A stretch of DNA of 64,000 nucleotides from Gallaecimonas kandeliae (GTDB lineage Bacteria > Pseudomonadota > Gammaproteobacteria > Enterobacterales > Gallaecimonadaceae). The notes beneath the pieces were generated by a model that saw only the letters and a list, made by a program, of their open reading frames with translations, was not told the DNA's origin and searched no databases. The position numbers and the translations under genes are program-made. Shown in pieces: positions 1,413 through 8,017 of the stretch. The stretch's first letter is position 1; each line of letters begins with the position of its first letter. The DNA lies in NCBI RefSeq assembly GCF_030450055.1, contig NZ_CP118480.1, positions 2,941,415 to 3,005,414 of the forward strand, written 5' to 3'.

Positions 1413-1610
1413 CGTGCAGCTGCCTTCCTTTGTGTAGGAGTTGCGTGAAGGACAGGGCCAGTGAACCGTCTCGAGCTGATGACGTGGGCGGCTTGACCCG
1501 GAGTGGAAGACCACCTACGAGGGCAAAAGTCGGGACCTGTGGAGGGGGGATTGTCTTAGAAACGAAAACAGTGAGGCCCGTCAACTCAGGGGGGTAGCGT
1601 GTCTTGATGG

Positions 1611-1790
1611 TGCCTGCGGCACGGCTTTTTGTTTGCAGGGGGCGCCCTGCATGCGCGGCACTTTTGCGGCAAAAGTCAGTGGGACTGCCCAGCCAAAACC
1701 TGGCCCCACGCTTCGCTTGTTCTTCGCCTCTGGTCGCTTGCCGCTGACCGCTGCATACGCGGGTCCAACCACGTATTCCGCTCGCTCGGC
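1611..1790 (+). repeat. Unnamed dispersed repeat, copy A (inverted pair with 2137-2313)
   Basis: Read on the plus strand this segment aligns along its length with the reverse complement of 2137-2313. Shared blocks in the same order are TGCCTGCGGCA, GGCTT..TTG.TTGC, AAGTCAG.GGG.CTGCCCA, CCTCTGGTCGCT, CATACGCG and CACGTATTC. The copies have diverged clearly, with many substitutions and small indels. Conceptual translations also align (KVSGTAQPKP against KVSGAAHPKA). I read the repeat as non-coding. Confidence 0.65.
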
Positions 1791-1855
1791 GTCCCTGGTT
1801 ACTCGGACCTTCCTGGTCCTCGCCCTAACGGGCCATCGTCGCAGGTTCCGATGTT

Positions 1856-1878
1856 CAAATTTGCTCCCGGCAAATTTG
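1856..1878. repeat. Perfect 9-bp hairpin between the repeat copies
   Basis: CAAATTTGC (1856-1864) and GCAAATTTG (1870-1878) form a perfect inverted repeat around a TCCCG loop. It has no adjacent T-run and no nearby gene end, so its role is unknown. Confidence 0.5.
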
Positions 1879-2136
1879 TCGCGCCAGCTCACGCTCCCGG
1901 CGCCTCAGCGCTGCGCTTAACGGGGCGAAAGCGCCATCACCATTGGCTTAAGCTTCTGGCCTGAGGTCCCGCAACTCCGTTCGTGCTTCTGCACAACGCA
2001 AGGAAGAAACAAGAGCCCAGTACAGCTAACCGAGCTGGCAGGTGAGACCCCGGAGCCCCTTTTAAGTGGAGCGCCTTACCGCCGGGAGTGAAAGGCCAGC
2101 CGAGACAGGACGGCAGGGGGCCGCCCAGGTGCAGGC

Positions 2137-2313
2137 GAATACGTGCCGGGAGCGCGTATGAGCCGGTGGCCTCCGAGCGACCAGAGGTAAGGACATCGCG
2201 TAACGCCAGGGGCGGTGCCTTTGGATGGGCAGCCCCGCTGACTTTGTGCGAAAACAAAGTATCCCGCCCGCCGGGGCGGGACCCGGCAAGCAACAAGCCA
2301 TGCCGCAGGCATA
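2137..2313 (-). repeat. Unnamed dispersed repeat, copy B (inverted pair with 1611-1790)
   Basis: This is the minus-strand partner of copy A. It begins (reading leftwards) with TATGCCTGCGGCA and ends with CACGTATTC. About 350 bp separate the two copies. No transposase, terminal repeat or target duplication is evident. It is either a dispersed intergenic element or an old inverted duplication. Confidence 0.65.
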
Positions 2314-2680
2314 CCACCCGCCCTTTTGGCTAAATCAAGACGGTTTGACACGGTTGGCCGTTGGACAGCGGCCAGCTCCCTTCAATTTTTTTGGATGGGC
2401 ATACAGTATGAACGGCATTGTAGGCAGGCGGATGCGTACTATCCTTCCCGACCAATGCGCGTTTTCACACCTCCAACCAGTAGCAAGTGGTTCATGCGGC
2501 GGGTTTTATCGTGATCCGATGAGTAGATAGTCGAGCCGGGGCTGGAATGATAACGCGCATGCTCGTTTTCATCCTTGGACATATTATGACACTGGTGAAA
2601 TACATAGGGGGATCAGCGCCTTGTACAACCTTATAGGCACTGGTCTAATGAGACAAAGCGCGTATGCGCACTATTACGCT

Positions 2681-2687
2681 GTTATGC
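2681..2687 (+). other. Left recombination boundary of integron cassette 1
   Basis: GTTATGC fits the integron core site in which the integrase cuts after the first G. It is the exact reverse complement of GCATAAC at 3387-3393, the first box of the attC at the other end of the same cassette. That match is expected because these two boxes come together when a cassette is circular, so it independently supports a cassette spanning 2682-3493. Confidence 0.7.
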
Positions 2688-2744
2688 GCGGTCCATGTCT
2701 TCATGGCTTGGCGCACAAAGAATTGAAATATAGCGAAGGAACAT

Positions 2745-3392
2745 ATGGATAATATTTTGAATAGATTGTTATGTTACTTGGCAGGAATAGACTTAAACAA
2801 TCTAATATCCACAAGCGCTACGGTAATTACCGCATTCATTGCCTGGAGTGCATTAAGCACATGGAAAAGTCAAAAGCGCGCAGATATATTTGTTGAATAT
2901 TTAGATGATTTTATGGATGAACTTCATGAGCTCATATATGCAGTCTATCCTGCTTTGGAGTTTTTAAACTATATTCAAATTGCCATTAAAAGCAGACAAG
3001 AGTTTTCAGATATCGAACAGGGTGCAATAGAATACTTTGAGAAAGAAGGAACTCGTGATTCGGAGGAGTTTCAAAAATACCTTGCTCCTTGTACAGATAG
3101 AGTCGCACGTGTTCGGTCATTGGCGGCAAAAGGGCAGGTGTTAGGTTTAGATGATTTTGATGCAATAATGACATCAAGTTTAAATATTTGTGCGCAATAC
3201 GATAGGCTGATGTCTCTCCGTGTGTTTATGGCTATGAGGAATATAGTTTGGCAAAATCCAACGGTTAATAAGACGCTTCGTTCAATATTGACTATAGATA
3301 ACGTGAAGATAAAAAGTGAAATTGCAGATAGCAATATGGCTTTCTTAAAAGCGGTTAAACGTAATTATGATCGAAACCTGCGTGACGCATAA
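2745..3392 (+). CDS. Integron cassette protein of unknown function, N-terminal membrane anchor
   Basis: The 215-residue product has one hydrophobic segment (about residues 18-38) followed by a charged, mostly helical soluble region, so it is probably an inner-membrane anchored protein with its bulk in the cytoplasm. No recognised motif is present. The AAGGAA before the ATG at 2745 is a good ribosome-binding site. The stop codon lies inside the first box of the attC site, the usual position for a cassette gene. Base composition is strikingly AT-rich compared with the flanking chromosome, which indicates acquisition by transfer. It may be a stress or phage-defence protein, as many cassette genes are, but nothing in the sequence proves that. 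Confidence 0.75.
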   Translation: MDNILNRLLCYLAGIDLNNLISTSATVITAFIAWSALSTWKSQKRADIFVEYLDDFMDELHELIYAVYPALEFLNYIQIAIKSRQEFSDIEQGAIEYFEKEGTRDSEEFQKYLAPCTDRVARVRSLAAKGQVLGLDDFDAIMTSSLNICAQYDRLMSLRVFMAMRNIVWQNPTVNKTLRSILTIDNVKIKSEIADSNMAFLKAVKRNYDRNLRDA

Positions 3393-3499
3393 CAATCAGC
3401 AGCAAGGGACCCCGCTACGTTCCGGCAACTTGTGGTTTGCTGCGCAAACTTACCACAAGTTGCCTCCACTCCACGGGGCCCCTGTGCTGGGCGTTAGGC
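3387..3499 (+). repeat. Integron attC recombination site (59-base element)
   Basis: The 113-bp site starts with GCATAAC (3387-3393) and ends with the core GTTAGGC (3493-3499), and the sequence between them is a long imperfect palindrome. The central arms GGCAACTTGTGGT and ACCACAAGTTGCC are perfectly complementary, with a smaller TTTGC/GCAAA hairpin inside. The outer arms CAGCAAGGGACCCCG and CGGGGCCCCTGTGCTG pair with one bulge. This is the folded single-strand substrate known for integron integrases. Confidence 0.85.
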
Positions 3500-3525
3500 T
3501 ACACAATCAGAGGATCTATAATACT

Positions 3526-4008
3526 GTGGCGAGATGCTTTCAAGATTGTGCTTGTCAATGCGGTCAGACTGACAATGAGTTTGATCTAATCGCAGCAAGT
3601 GAACTTGCAAATCCTATTTCCTTGCAAAGTATTGCCCGGATGAACATTGGTTGGTTTAGTGACCGGAATATCTGCGATCATCACATCAACGAATGGGGCC
3701 TGGATCATAAAGAGGGTGTGTACATCCTTTGGCATAAAAGTGACTATTGTGCTGAGCATGAACGTTTTCACATGAGAGCGCTGTATGTTGGTAAGGGCAA
3801 CATTGGTATACGTTTACGAACTCATTGGGAAAACAAAGATTTTTCGGACCAGTTGCTTATATATTTCACATATGTAGAAATGCAAAATAGGCTTTCAAAA
3901 TATGTCGAGCAGCTATTGCTTGACGTGTACGATTTTCCACTAAATAAATCGGAAAACACTGGGCAAAAAATTTTATGTGAGCACTTTACTCAAAACGAGG
4001 TGGATTGA
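3526..4008 (+). CDS. Integron cassette protein with a GIY-YIG-like nuclease domain
   Basis: The protein carries a GVYIL strand, then ALYVGKGN and RLRTHW, the order seen in the GIY-YIG endonuclease fold (GIY, then YIG, then a basic residue). The conserved glutamate may be within YVEQLLLD further on. I chose the GTG at 3526 (160 aa) because the frame further upstream runs through the attC site and AGAGGA lies at 3509-3514; an ATG at 3640 is the alternative. AT-rich like cassette 1. GIY-YIG enzymes cut DNA in repair, homing and restriction, but the biological target is unknown here and catalysis is not certain. Confidence 0.65.
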   Translation: MARCFQDCACQCGQTDNEFDLIAASELANPISLQSIARMNIGWFSDRNICDHHINEWGLDHKEGVYILWHKSDYCAEHERFHMRALYVGKGNIGIRLRTHWENKDFSDQLLIYFTYVEMQNRLSKYVEQLLLDVYDFPLNKSENTGQKILCEHFTQNEVD

Positions 4009-4013
4009 ATGGC

Positions 4014-4046
4014 ACCTAACAAGGTGAAAGTACCGTTTTGTTATCC
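4014..4046 (+). other. Truncated attC at the end of cassette 2
   Basis: ACCTAAC (4014-4020) directly after the stop codon fits the first attC box and matches six of seven bases of the complement of this cassette's own left core (GTTAGGC, 3493-3499). A possible core, GTTATCC, follows at 4040-4046, but 33 bp is too short for a working attC and the long palindrome is missing. The site appears deleted, marking the right edge of the array. Confidence 0.5.
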
Positions 4047-4214: not shown

Positions 4215-5258
4215 ATGTTGTTCAAAGTAGGGGAGCTGGCCCAGCGTTGTGGCCTGACGGTTCGCACCCTCCACCACTATGACGCCGTTGGGTTGCTTAG
4301 TCCTTCAGCTCGTTCCGATAGCGGCTACAGGCTGTATGACCGTGGCGACGTTGCCCGGTTGCACGAGATCCAGGCGCTAAAGCGCTTTGGCTTGCCGTTG
4401 GCCGACATCGGGGCAGTTCTGGCGGACCCCGGCAGGAACCTCGCAGCCATTGTCGAGCAACAGATGGCGTCGTTGGCGCGGCAGCTCGAAGAGGGCAGGA
4501 GGCTGCATGGCCGCTTGTCCGAGCTCCATCAGCAGCTGCAGCGAGGGGAAGAACCGGCGTTGGCCGATTGGTTAACGACTCTGGAGATGATGGCAATGTA
4601 CGACAAGTATTTTTCGGCTGACGAGATTGAAAGACTGCCGCTGTTAGATGCGAAGGATACGGCGGTAAGGGCCGAGTGGGCGTCCCTCGTGGACGAGGTT
4701 CATCAGGCAATGGGCGCCGAGGTGCCTGCTGAGGGCCTTGAGGCGCAGGCCCTGGCCAGGCGCTGGATGGCCATGCTGGTGCGTGACACAGATGGCGATC
4801 CCAGGTTGCTGGCGAAGTTGAACACCATGCAGTACCAGGAGCCGGACGCGCAGGAACAGAGTGGTGTGACGCCCGAGATGATGGCCTATATCCAAGGCGC
4901 TTTTACCCAGAGCAAGTTGGCGATTTACGAGAAGTACCTCTCGCCAGAAGAATTCCAGTTCATGCGCGCCAACTACGGCAAGCAGGGGGCCCTATGGCCA
5001 CCCTTGATCGGCGCCGTCCGCCAGCAACTGGAAGAAGGCACAGCCCCCGACGCCCCCCAGATGCAGCGCCTGGCAGCCCAGTGGATGGCGCTGTTCCGCT
5101 CCTATGCCGGTGACGATCCACAGACCCACGCGAAGATTAGGGCGGCACACCAGGCAGAGCCCCAGCTGCTGGAAGGGACCTTCATCGACAAGGCGCTGCT
5201 GGGGTATATCGCCCAGGCGCTGTCAGGGGTGCAAGGCGCTGAGGTGACGGCGCAATAA
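4215..5258 (+). CDS. MerR-family regulator with two TipAS-like ligand domains
   Basis: Residues 1-70 form a MerR-type winged helix-turn-helix (VGELAQRCGLTVRTLHHYD, then GYRLYD). Residues 75-115 look like the dimerising coiled coil. The rest is two tandem repeats (about 125-230 and 232-335), each starting YxKY(F/S)L/S..E and containing RRWMAM/AQWMAL and a D(G)DP segment, as in the TipAS antibiotic-binding domain. Most TipAL-type regulators have one such domain, so the duplication is unusual. It likely binds hydrophobic compounds and activates promoters with long spacers. GAAGGAG precedes the ATG. A strong hairpin follows the gene. Its targets are unknown; no transporter lies next to it. Confidence 0.85.
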   Translation: MLFKVGELAQRCGLTVRTLHHYDAVGLLSPSARSDSGYRLYDRGDVARLHEIQALKRFGLPLADIGAVLADPGRNLAAIVEQQMASLARQLEEGRRLHGRLSELHQQLQRGEEPALADWLTTLEMMAMYDKYFSADEIERLPLLDAKDTAVRAEWASLVDEVHQAMGAEVPAEGLEAQALARRWMAMLVRDTDGDPRLLAKLNTMQYQEPDAQEQSGVTPEMMAYIQGAFTQSKLAIYEKYLSPEEFQFMRANYGKQGALWPPLIGAVRQQLEEGTAPDAPQMQRLAAQWMALFRSYAGDDPQTHAKIRAAHQAEPQLLEGTFIDKALLGYIAQALSGVQGAEVTAQ

Positions 5259-6715: not shown

Positions 6716-8017
6716 ATGAAAAACCCCAAGAAGCTGTGGTTGCTGGCGGTCATAGTGTTTGCCGCCGTTTTGGCTCTTGGGGAGTACATAGTGCACCTCC
6801 AGGAGCTGAACGCCAGGAAGGCCGACAGCGCCAAGCAGATGGCCAGCCTGACCGAGCTACGCGCCCGCATCGAGTCCTCCCTCAATGCCAGCCTCTACAC
6901 CAGCAGGGGTCTGGTGTCTTTCCTGCGCACCCAGCCCAAGGCCTCCAAGGCCGAGGTGGACGCCATGCTGGCCGACCTCTTCCATTCCAGCCGCCACCTG
7001 CGGGACCTGGTCACGGCCCCGGATCTGGTGATGCGCCAGGTCTACCCCCTCAAAGGCAACGAGAGCATCATCGGTGTCGACTATCGCAGCCTCCCGGACC
7101 AATGGCCGGCCGTTGAGGCCTGCATCCGCAGCCGCAGCACAGTGCTGGACGGCCCCGTCAAGCTGATCCAGGGCGGCATAGGGGTGGTGGCCCGCAGCCC
7201 CGTCTTCCTGGCGGACGGCAAGCTCTGGGGCGTGGTCGGCATGGTGGTGGATCTCGACGCCGTCTTGCGGGACGCCGGCTTCTTCAGCCTGGTGGACCGC
7301 TTCGAGCTGCGGCTGTCCAACCCTGCCAAGGCGGAGAGCTATATCTACGGCGCCGCCACCATGAGCCATCCCCGTTTCAGCCTGCCGCTCAAGGTGCTGT
7401 CCGACAGCTGGCAGCTGCAGGCCGACACCAAGGAAAGGCCTGCATCCATGCTGCCTTGGCACCTGCTGGCCCTGCTGTCGGCCCTGCTGGTCTCCATCCT
7501 GGTCTACCTGATGCTCAGGGAGCACCTGCGGGCCCAGTTTTGGGCCAACCATGACGTGCTGACTCAACTGCCCAACCGCCGATTCTTCATGCGCAGCCTG
7601 GAGCAGGCCCTGGACCAATGGCAGCAGCGCCGCCGCCCCTTTGCCCTCTTCTACCTGGATCTCAACGGCTTCAAACGCATCAACGACGACTACGGCCACG
7701 AAGTGGGGGACGGGGTGCTGGTGGAGCTGGCCAGGCGGCTGCACCAGTCGGCCCGCAAGGGGGATCTGGTGGCCCGCATCGGCGGCGACGAGTTCGTGCT
7801 GCTGCTTCCGGATCTCGCCTCGGTCAAGGACATCCGCCTGGCCGCCCAGCGCTTTTTGAATGCGGTCCAGGCCCCCATGACGGTGCTGGGCAACACCCTC
7901 AACCTCAAGGTGGCCATGGGCCAGGCCAGGCCGGCCCAGAGCGGCGACAAGGCCGACGACCTCATCCGCCAGGCCGACCTGGCCATGTATCAGCAGAAGA
8001 ACGGCACTACTTCTTGA
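6716..8017 (+). CDS. Membrane-bound diguanylate cyclase with periplasmic CHASE-like sensor
   Basis: A membrane segment at residues 7-25 and a second at 247-266 enclose a periplasmic domain of about 220 residues; its RGLVSFL start and GIGVVARSPVF middle resemble CHASE sensors. The GGDEF domain follows: YLDLNGFKRIND, GGDEF at 356-360, and an RKGD inhibitory site at 347-350, exactly five residues upstream. It therefore should synthesise c-di-GMP in response to an extracytoplasmic signal and be inhibited by product. The 3' end overlaps the converging ydbL gene by 11 bp. The sensed ligand cannot be deduced. Confidence 0.92.
   Translation: MKNPKKLWLLAVIVFAAVLALGEYIVHLQELNARKADSAKQMASLTELRARIESSLNASLYTSRGLVSFLRTQPKASKAEVDAMLADLFHSSRHLRDLVTAPDLVMRQVYPLKGNESIIGVDYRSLPDQWPAVEACIRSRSTVLDGPVKLIQGGIGVVARSPVFLADGKLWGVVGMVVDLDAVLRDAGFFSLVDRFELRLSNPAKAESYIYGAATMSHPRFSLPLKVLSDSWQLQADTKERPASMLPWHLLALLSALLVSILVYLMLREHLRAQFWANHDVLTQLPNRRFFMRSLEQALDQWQQRRRPFALFYLDLNGFKRINDDYGHEVGDGVLVELARRLHQSARKGDLVARIGGDEFVLLLPDLASVKDIRLAAQRFLNAVQAPMTVLGNTLNLKVAMGQARPAQSGDKADDLIRQADLAMYQQKNGTTS

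Follow-up and report, generated by a model that had tools for sequence, protein, structure and literature searches.

Sedentary chromosomal integrons, as found in Vibrio and other bacteria, consist of an integrase gene (intI), an attI site and cassettes with attC sites. Arrays, or single attC sites, without an integrase are known as CALIN or SALIN (PMC9024848, PMC9229058, PMC12444791), and IntegronFinder 2.0 requires by default two attC for a CALIN (PMC9024848). Their cassettes are remote from intI, and many of the genomes also have a complete integron at another place, as far as the accessible text of these papers goes. Scattered CALINs have been described in Shewanella and Xanthomonas (PMC9229058, PMC12444791), with attI heads unmentioned in the text accessible. 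The closest precedent found is the Shewanella prophage M16-3, in which a CALIN with its own attI is described (PMC9892861). Copying of attI sequence to a new place is also seen in the Delta-attI cassettes of class 1 and class 2 integrons, where pieces of attI are parts of cassettes (PMC12901181).

The window, that is the whole 64-kb stretch of DNA analysed here (G000:C1:2941415-3005414), belongs to a one-contig genome of 3.84 Mb, called G000. It almost certainly holds an attI-led, integrase-less cassette platform that is a member of a dispersed family. As in sedentary chromosomal integrons, an intI with a LexA-like box, an attI and cassettes with attC are found in this genome. However, those integrons have one attI beside intI, whereas here there are 14 in one chromosome, 13 of which are far from intI. 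Chromosomal CALINs have no attI at their head mentioned in the accessible text, whereas every platform has one here. Similarly, the M16-3 account, as far as accessible, has one extra site in a prophage, in contrast to 13 in a chromosome, genus-wide, and in the Delta-attI cassettes described, pieces of attI take the place of attC within an array, whereas here separate arrays are each headed by a whole attI region. No description of many dispersed attI in one chromosome, genus-wide, was found in the literature searched, from which most subscription journals were excluded.

Cassette 1 of the window (2682..3493, + strand) runs from the attI crossover to the crossover of its attC, at 3387..3499 (+ strand). 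The initial annotation had called a complete attC at this place, and both covariance and folding analyses recovered a strong site there. R2, a covariance model made from 28 attC of the genus, all of them located behind attI and the window's own excluded, had 3387-3499 as its sole match in the 64-kb window up to E 10 (37.8 bits, E 1.4e-6). Folded as single-stranded DNA, this sequence was far better than its shuffles (z -5.5 for the + strand and -5.0 for the - strand, 0 of 200 shuffles being as good). Rfam, at its gathering threshold, had no match in the window. In cassette 1, the left core GTTATGC (2681) and the first attC box GCATAAC (3387) are exact complements (7 of 7), and in cassette 2 the left core GTTAGGC (3493) is complementary at 6 of 7 positions to the first box ACCTAAC (4014), as had been read before. 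The second attC of the initial annotation did not hold. The sequence at 4014..4046 (+ strand), from the first box ACCTAAC to GTTATCC, is a stub of 33 nt without R2 match, for which 43 and 56 of 200 shuffles folded as well, and it is at best the truncated attC of cassette 2, at the right end of the array. A common right end of platforms was sought for this truncated attC and none was found.

The gene of cassette 1 (2745..3392, + strand) encodes 215 aa of no known family: DUF416 alone came up, under cut-off (E 0.012), and neither NCBIfam nor PADLOC gave a family. That of cassette 2 (3526..4008, + strand), with a putative GTG start, encodes 160 aa, which might be GIY-YIG nuclease-like given weak matches to Pfam GIY_YIG_2 (E 0.0055, under cut-off) and to the PADLOC candidate PDC-S14 (E 3.5e-4). 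Both genes are AT-rich, as first noticed, with a GC content of 0.367 and 0.404 versus 0.61 for the window. Neither protein had a match in the plasmid collection. For the collections searched, a plasmid home for the cassettes was rejected (matches to 29 records, distant, and the 20 of 29 listed all fall within query positions 1836-2123, the MerR part), and so was a viral home, the viral contigs searched with the cassette 1 protein containing no relative. Fixation of both genes at this position across the genus, which would have spoken against cassettes, was not seen as far as compared; in tblastn, neither cassette protein was matched in the stretches compared between species. The right neighbour of the array is a MerR gene with a TipAS domain (4215-5258), for which the genus's four other species gave no match at E 1e-30, and gene order common with relatives starts at 6716 in the stretches compared. 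Since the last attC is truncated and the right neighbour gene was not found in those four relatives, the window copy of the platform may be past its prime.

Alignment of the window with the native attI region of G000, that adjoining intI, revealed a site akin to it immediately to the left of cassette 1. This orphan attI copy (2571..2684, + strand) is matched at genome positions 2943985-2944098 by R1 (77.1 bits, E 2.8e-21, the copy being in the training set), a sequence-only model of 20 attI, namely 14 from G000, four from G003 and one each, the native one, from G002 and G004. It ends in the crossover core G/TTATGC (2681..2687, + strand), where the last base of attI meets the left core of cassette 1, and all copies diverge after GTTA. 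A search of G000 with window positions 2560-2745 gave six further copies of 77-98% identity, each match ending at most 4 nt from the core, and some weaker matches. This attI is the main point that the initial annotation missed, along with the distant intI. As to a cassette promoter (Pc), a conserved TCTAAT-like motif was seen by eye in attI, and a promoter consensus scan gave 5 sites in the region, versus 4.7 expected, and no site in 2571-2684.

The left part of the platform is repeat R (1573..2409, + strand), with inverted internal similarity and pieces at dozens of other places in the genome. With 1450-2690 of the window as a query, and with 40 of 84 candidates scored, at least 135 matches were obtained in G000; nearly complete copies of R adjoin attI at 746996-748096 and 2254074-2254879. 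At 2391..2408 (+ strand) lies a half box, TTGGATGGGCATACAGTA; the native site shows CTGTATGGATACACAGTA at this distance, ahead of intI, and the box preceding the G000 intI is CTGTATGGATACACAG. All three we take to be LexA-like. The half box would mark the spot where intI is missing.

Counted with R1 at E ≤ 0.1, the five genomes of the genus contain 14 (G000), 15 (G001), 14 (G002), 6 (G003) and 8 (G004) attI; the training set had no G001 site and one of the 14 G002 sites. In G000, 13 of the 14 are without intI. A degenerate attI pattern brought in further, more divergent sites of G000; allowing up to 3 mismatches, it had 26 matches versus 20 for its reversed control, so that only the sites with sequence support, 14 in all, were kept. 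By eye, the attI of the genus are of four sequence types, three of which occur in G000, and several platforms at corresponding places in different species carry different types (for example G000_1096904, G001_2684360, G002_C9_160543 and G004_C27_2200). Some attI have damaged cores (G000 3628073, G001 2366338). Five attI pairs have a spacing of 0.7-1.8 kb and enclose a gene, in many cases at a place where the first attC appears cut off: four are in G001 (2367310/2366338, 727543/726598, 2325488/2324495 and 1159819/1159078) and one in G002 (C2, 100420/102289). The first cassette-like gene behind attI 100420 of this last pair (L142) resembles, by eye, a reverse transcriptase.

Three genomes of other genera had 1 (E 0.08), 0 and 0 matches with R1. 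When the survey was extended to the order under stricter filters (197 genomes, E ≤ 0.001), 179 were without match, 13 others had 1 to 3, and the five of the genus had 14, 14, 14, 8 and 6, this genus being the only one with more than 3. R1 knows the attI of this genus only, so that absence of matches elsewhere does not amount to absence of dispersed attI, as illustrated by G033, a genome of another genus that R1 does not match despite its seven attI. These were revealed by a joined-query test based on each genome's own attI, which gave one copy in G028, G014 and G034, two in G010 and seven in G033, and which undercounts, since it recovers 4 of the 14 attI in the G000 positive control. Six attI of G033 are extra ones away from intI, five of these with chained attC; the seven (L155-L161) are on C1 at 2616840, 4112279, 1356074, 1025526, 1002934, 993266 and 1280622.

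Are these attI followed by cassettes? In a chain test, we looked behind each attI for a foldable attC whose first box is complementary, exactly or else with one mismatch, to the left core. At least one such attC was found behind 40 of the 57 attI and none behind 17, for a total of 83 attC, 68 exact; as a mismatch is tolerated, some of the 83 are doubtful. An exactly complementary and foldable attC was met with its own core in 33 of the 53 attI-led arrays having enough sequence in the five genomes, versus 31 successes in 596 trials when cores were swapped between arrays, which gives weight to the core-complement test. Scans for attC by fold alone, either too strict or too loose, were superseded by this chain and by R2. 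The presence of an ORF directly behind attI is uninformative (51 of 55 cases, 65% in a random control).

Genome-wide, R2 detected (E ≤ 0.01, best 150 first-look candidates scored per genome) 19, 15, 22, 11 and 10 attC in G000 to G004, and 6 in G033. Among these 83 R2 sites, 73 lie downstream of a same-strand attI at a distance of at most 6 kb (19/19, 13/15, 22/22, 6/11 and 7/10 in G000 to G004, and 6/6 in G033). The other 10, in G001, G003 and G004, are not near any attI found, and are perhaps CALINs proper, or follow diverged attI. Sites of this kind were noted at 1176856-1178562 and 1965306-1966142 of G003:C1, at 1797024 and 1865164 of G001, and on C1 and C40 of G004.

The initial annotation had the window array without integrase. 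None was found within 5 kb of it in a whole-genome search, but a full-length integrase gene is present elsewhere in G000. NCBIfam TIGR02249 had six matches in this genome, one of them over cut-off, at 2036304-2037239 (396.9 bits), so the sole integron integrase by this measure is some 0.9 Mb from the window array. Residues 1-317 of its 318 align with the solved IntI4 (2a3v), and a cassette array follows the native attI. G002 and G003 each have a full-length intI match. The intI of G004 (G004:C9:141716-142764) is interrupted: it contains a TGA and its match is split. G001 has no intI over cut-off (best 77.5 bits). Altogether, four of the 57 attI of the five genomes adjoin an intI, including the interrupted form, and 53 do not. 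With the G000 IntI as tblastn query (E 0.01), no remnant was detected in the stretches around these 53 orphans; before one G001 attI, some nine codons from the beginning of an intI can be made out by eye.

In terms of known classes, the window locus has an attI at the array head and a cassette with attC, as a complete integron does, without the adjacent intI. It has no nearby integrase, as a CALIN, and with R2 fewer than the two attC of the IntegronFinder 2.0 default. The cluster of attC lacking an integrase that had first been proposed is thus right in its cassette DNA and its want of an adjacent integrase, but has one complete attC and is headed by attI.

Orphan platforms resemble the native one minus about 1 kb, which is the intI gene. 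For instance, the part of repeat R found beyond intI at -1732 to -1322 from the native core is found at -740 to -330 at the orphan 1096904. Of the 57 platforms, 14 have a half box with an identical 22-nt junction, and these belong to G000, G002 and G004; other orphan platforms keep the whole LexA-like box. We infer from these comparisons that intI was lost from platforms and that platforms without intI spread within the genus. Two candidates for what moves them are repeat R and an element that carries a transposase gene of Y1 type (REP-associated). The latter element, with ends like GGACAYCCATCTTCT, follows numerous arrays in G001, G002 and G004 (loci L145, L143, L121 and L127, the transposase family being named by eye from a HYHLV motif). 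Another element, insertion-sequence-like and 1.26 kb long, was seen behind several arrays (L021 and L023, G000 747 kb and 1097 kb, and G001 platforms), its copies being 98-100% identical within a genome.

What would such platforms do? The one IntI would cut cassettes from any array, in trans, and insert them at any attI, so that a reservoir of cassettes and of first positions would be spread across many loci. In this view, intI would also have been lost from platforms, and those without it would have multiplied within the genus, perhaps together with surrounding repeats and transposase elements. Taken as a whole, this explanation, in which the window holds one of 14 platforms, devoid of an integrase of its own, is very probable in our judgement. 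That the single IntI serves the window platform in trans is probable; against such service, G001 has its 15 attI and no intI. The kin set of attI, the attC behind attI and the cassette common to native and orphan arrays argue for placing the window locus, as a platform devoid of integrase, in a "distributed" integron. The broader form of this proposal, that one LexA-boxed intI serves around fourteen attI, letting cassettes be shuffled and put in first place at many loci, and that non-autonomous, spreading platforms are one source of integrase-less arrays, has roughly even chances. Standing against the main explanation are some damaged cores, the truncated last attC of the window with no common right end of platforms found for it, the 17 attI without a chained attC, the 10 R2 sites away from any attI found, and the promoter scan without a site in the window attI.

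A different history is that an ancestor had several complete integrons, most of which lost intI, so that their attI and cassettes would now be only decaying relics. Gene neighbourhoods fit this, as genes beside the native intI of G000, G002, G003 and G004 recur near intI-less platforms in other species: an intI-less G001 platform has upstream of it a match to the gene that precedes the native intI in G002 and G004, an intI-less G002 platform has there a match to that of G000, and two genes beside the G003 native intI have matches upstream of the window platform. The interrupted intI of G004, its lack in G001, the truncated last attC of the window and the damaged cores elsewhere go in the same direction. 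However, nearly identical cassettes recur between native and orphan arrays. The native array of G000 and the orphan 2254765 of this genome have one cassette in common (99.87% over 751 nt; 744 of 746 aligned columns agree between slices, one difference being a slicing offset), with flanks that diverge at the attC cores on both sides. Native and orphan arrays of G003 have 1514 nt in common at 99.9%, with an attC core as the left limit and no core seen at the right end. Across species, a cassette of the G000 orphan 1585098 is 94.5% identical over 488 nt to one in the native array of G004, with cores at both ends. Ordinary recombination or transfer could also lead to such sharing. Decay is likewise hard to reconcile with the exact tandem copy of the first cassette behind the orphan 1096904 (448/448 identical), for which slippage could be the source, with the G002 orphan attI that is identical to the native attI over the 93 nt compared, and with the lack of intI remnants by tblastn near the 53 orphans. 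We regard mere relics as improbable.

It is very doubtful that the attI-like stretch is just part of an ordinary intergenic repeat before these genes: repeat R is abundant and pieces of it precede 36 of the 57 attI, but R is also found without attI (for example at 1752649, 2652906 and 612789), the attI part stops at the core, where attC-tailed cassettes follow, and four attI adjoin intI. Least credible of all is a CALIN born from cassette insertion at generic attG sites, without attI, a type of event known for integrases in E. coli as far as the accessible text describes it (PMC12444791, PMC12901181; an entry on attG sites also stands in the reference list of PMC11023631), because more than 100 nt before each cassette junction fit the attI model, at the window locus too, and generic targets would not have attI sequence in common.

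Within this genus, then, integrase-less arrays carry their own attI and have cassettes in common with the integrase-bearing array. Since G033, which belongs to a second genus of the order, holds its own attI in seven copies, this layout may be more widespread than assumed. If IntI works in trans, one genome would offer many first positions for cassettes, and the origin and persistence of integrase-less arrays would become testable in a single genus. Some fourteen attI scattered round a chromosome with a single intI suggest that one enzyme may be able to serve many gene-capture platforms.
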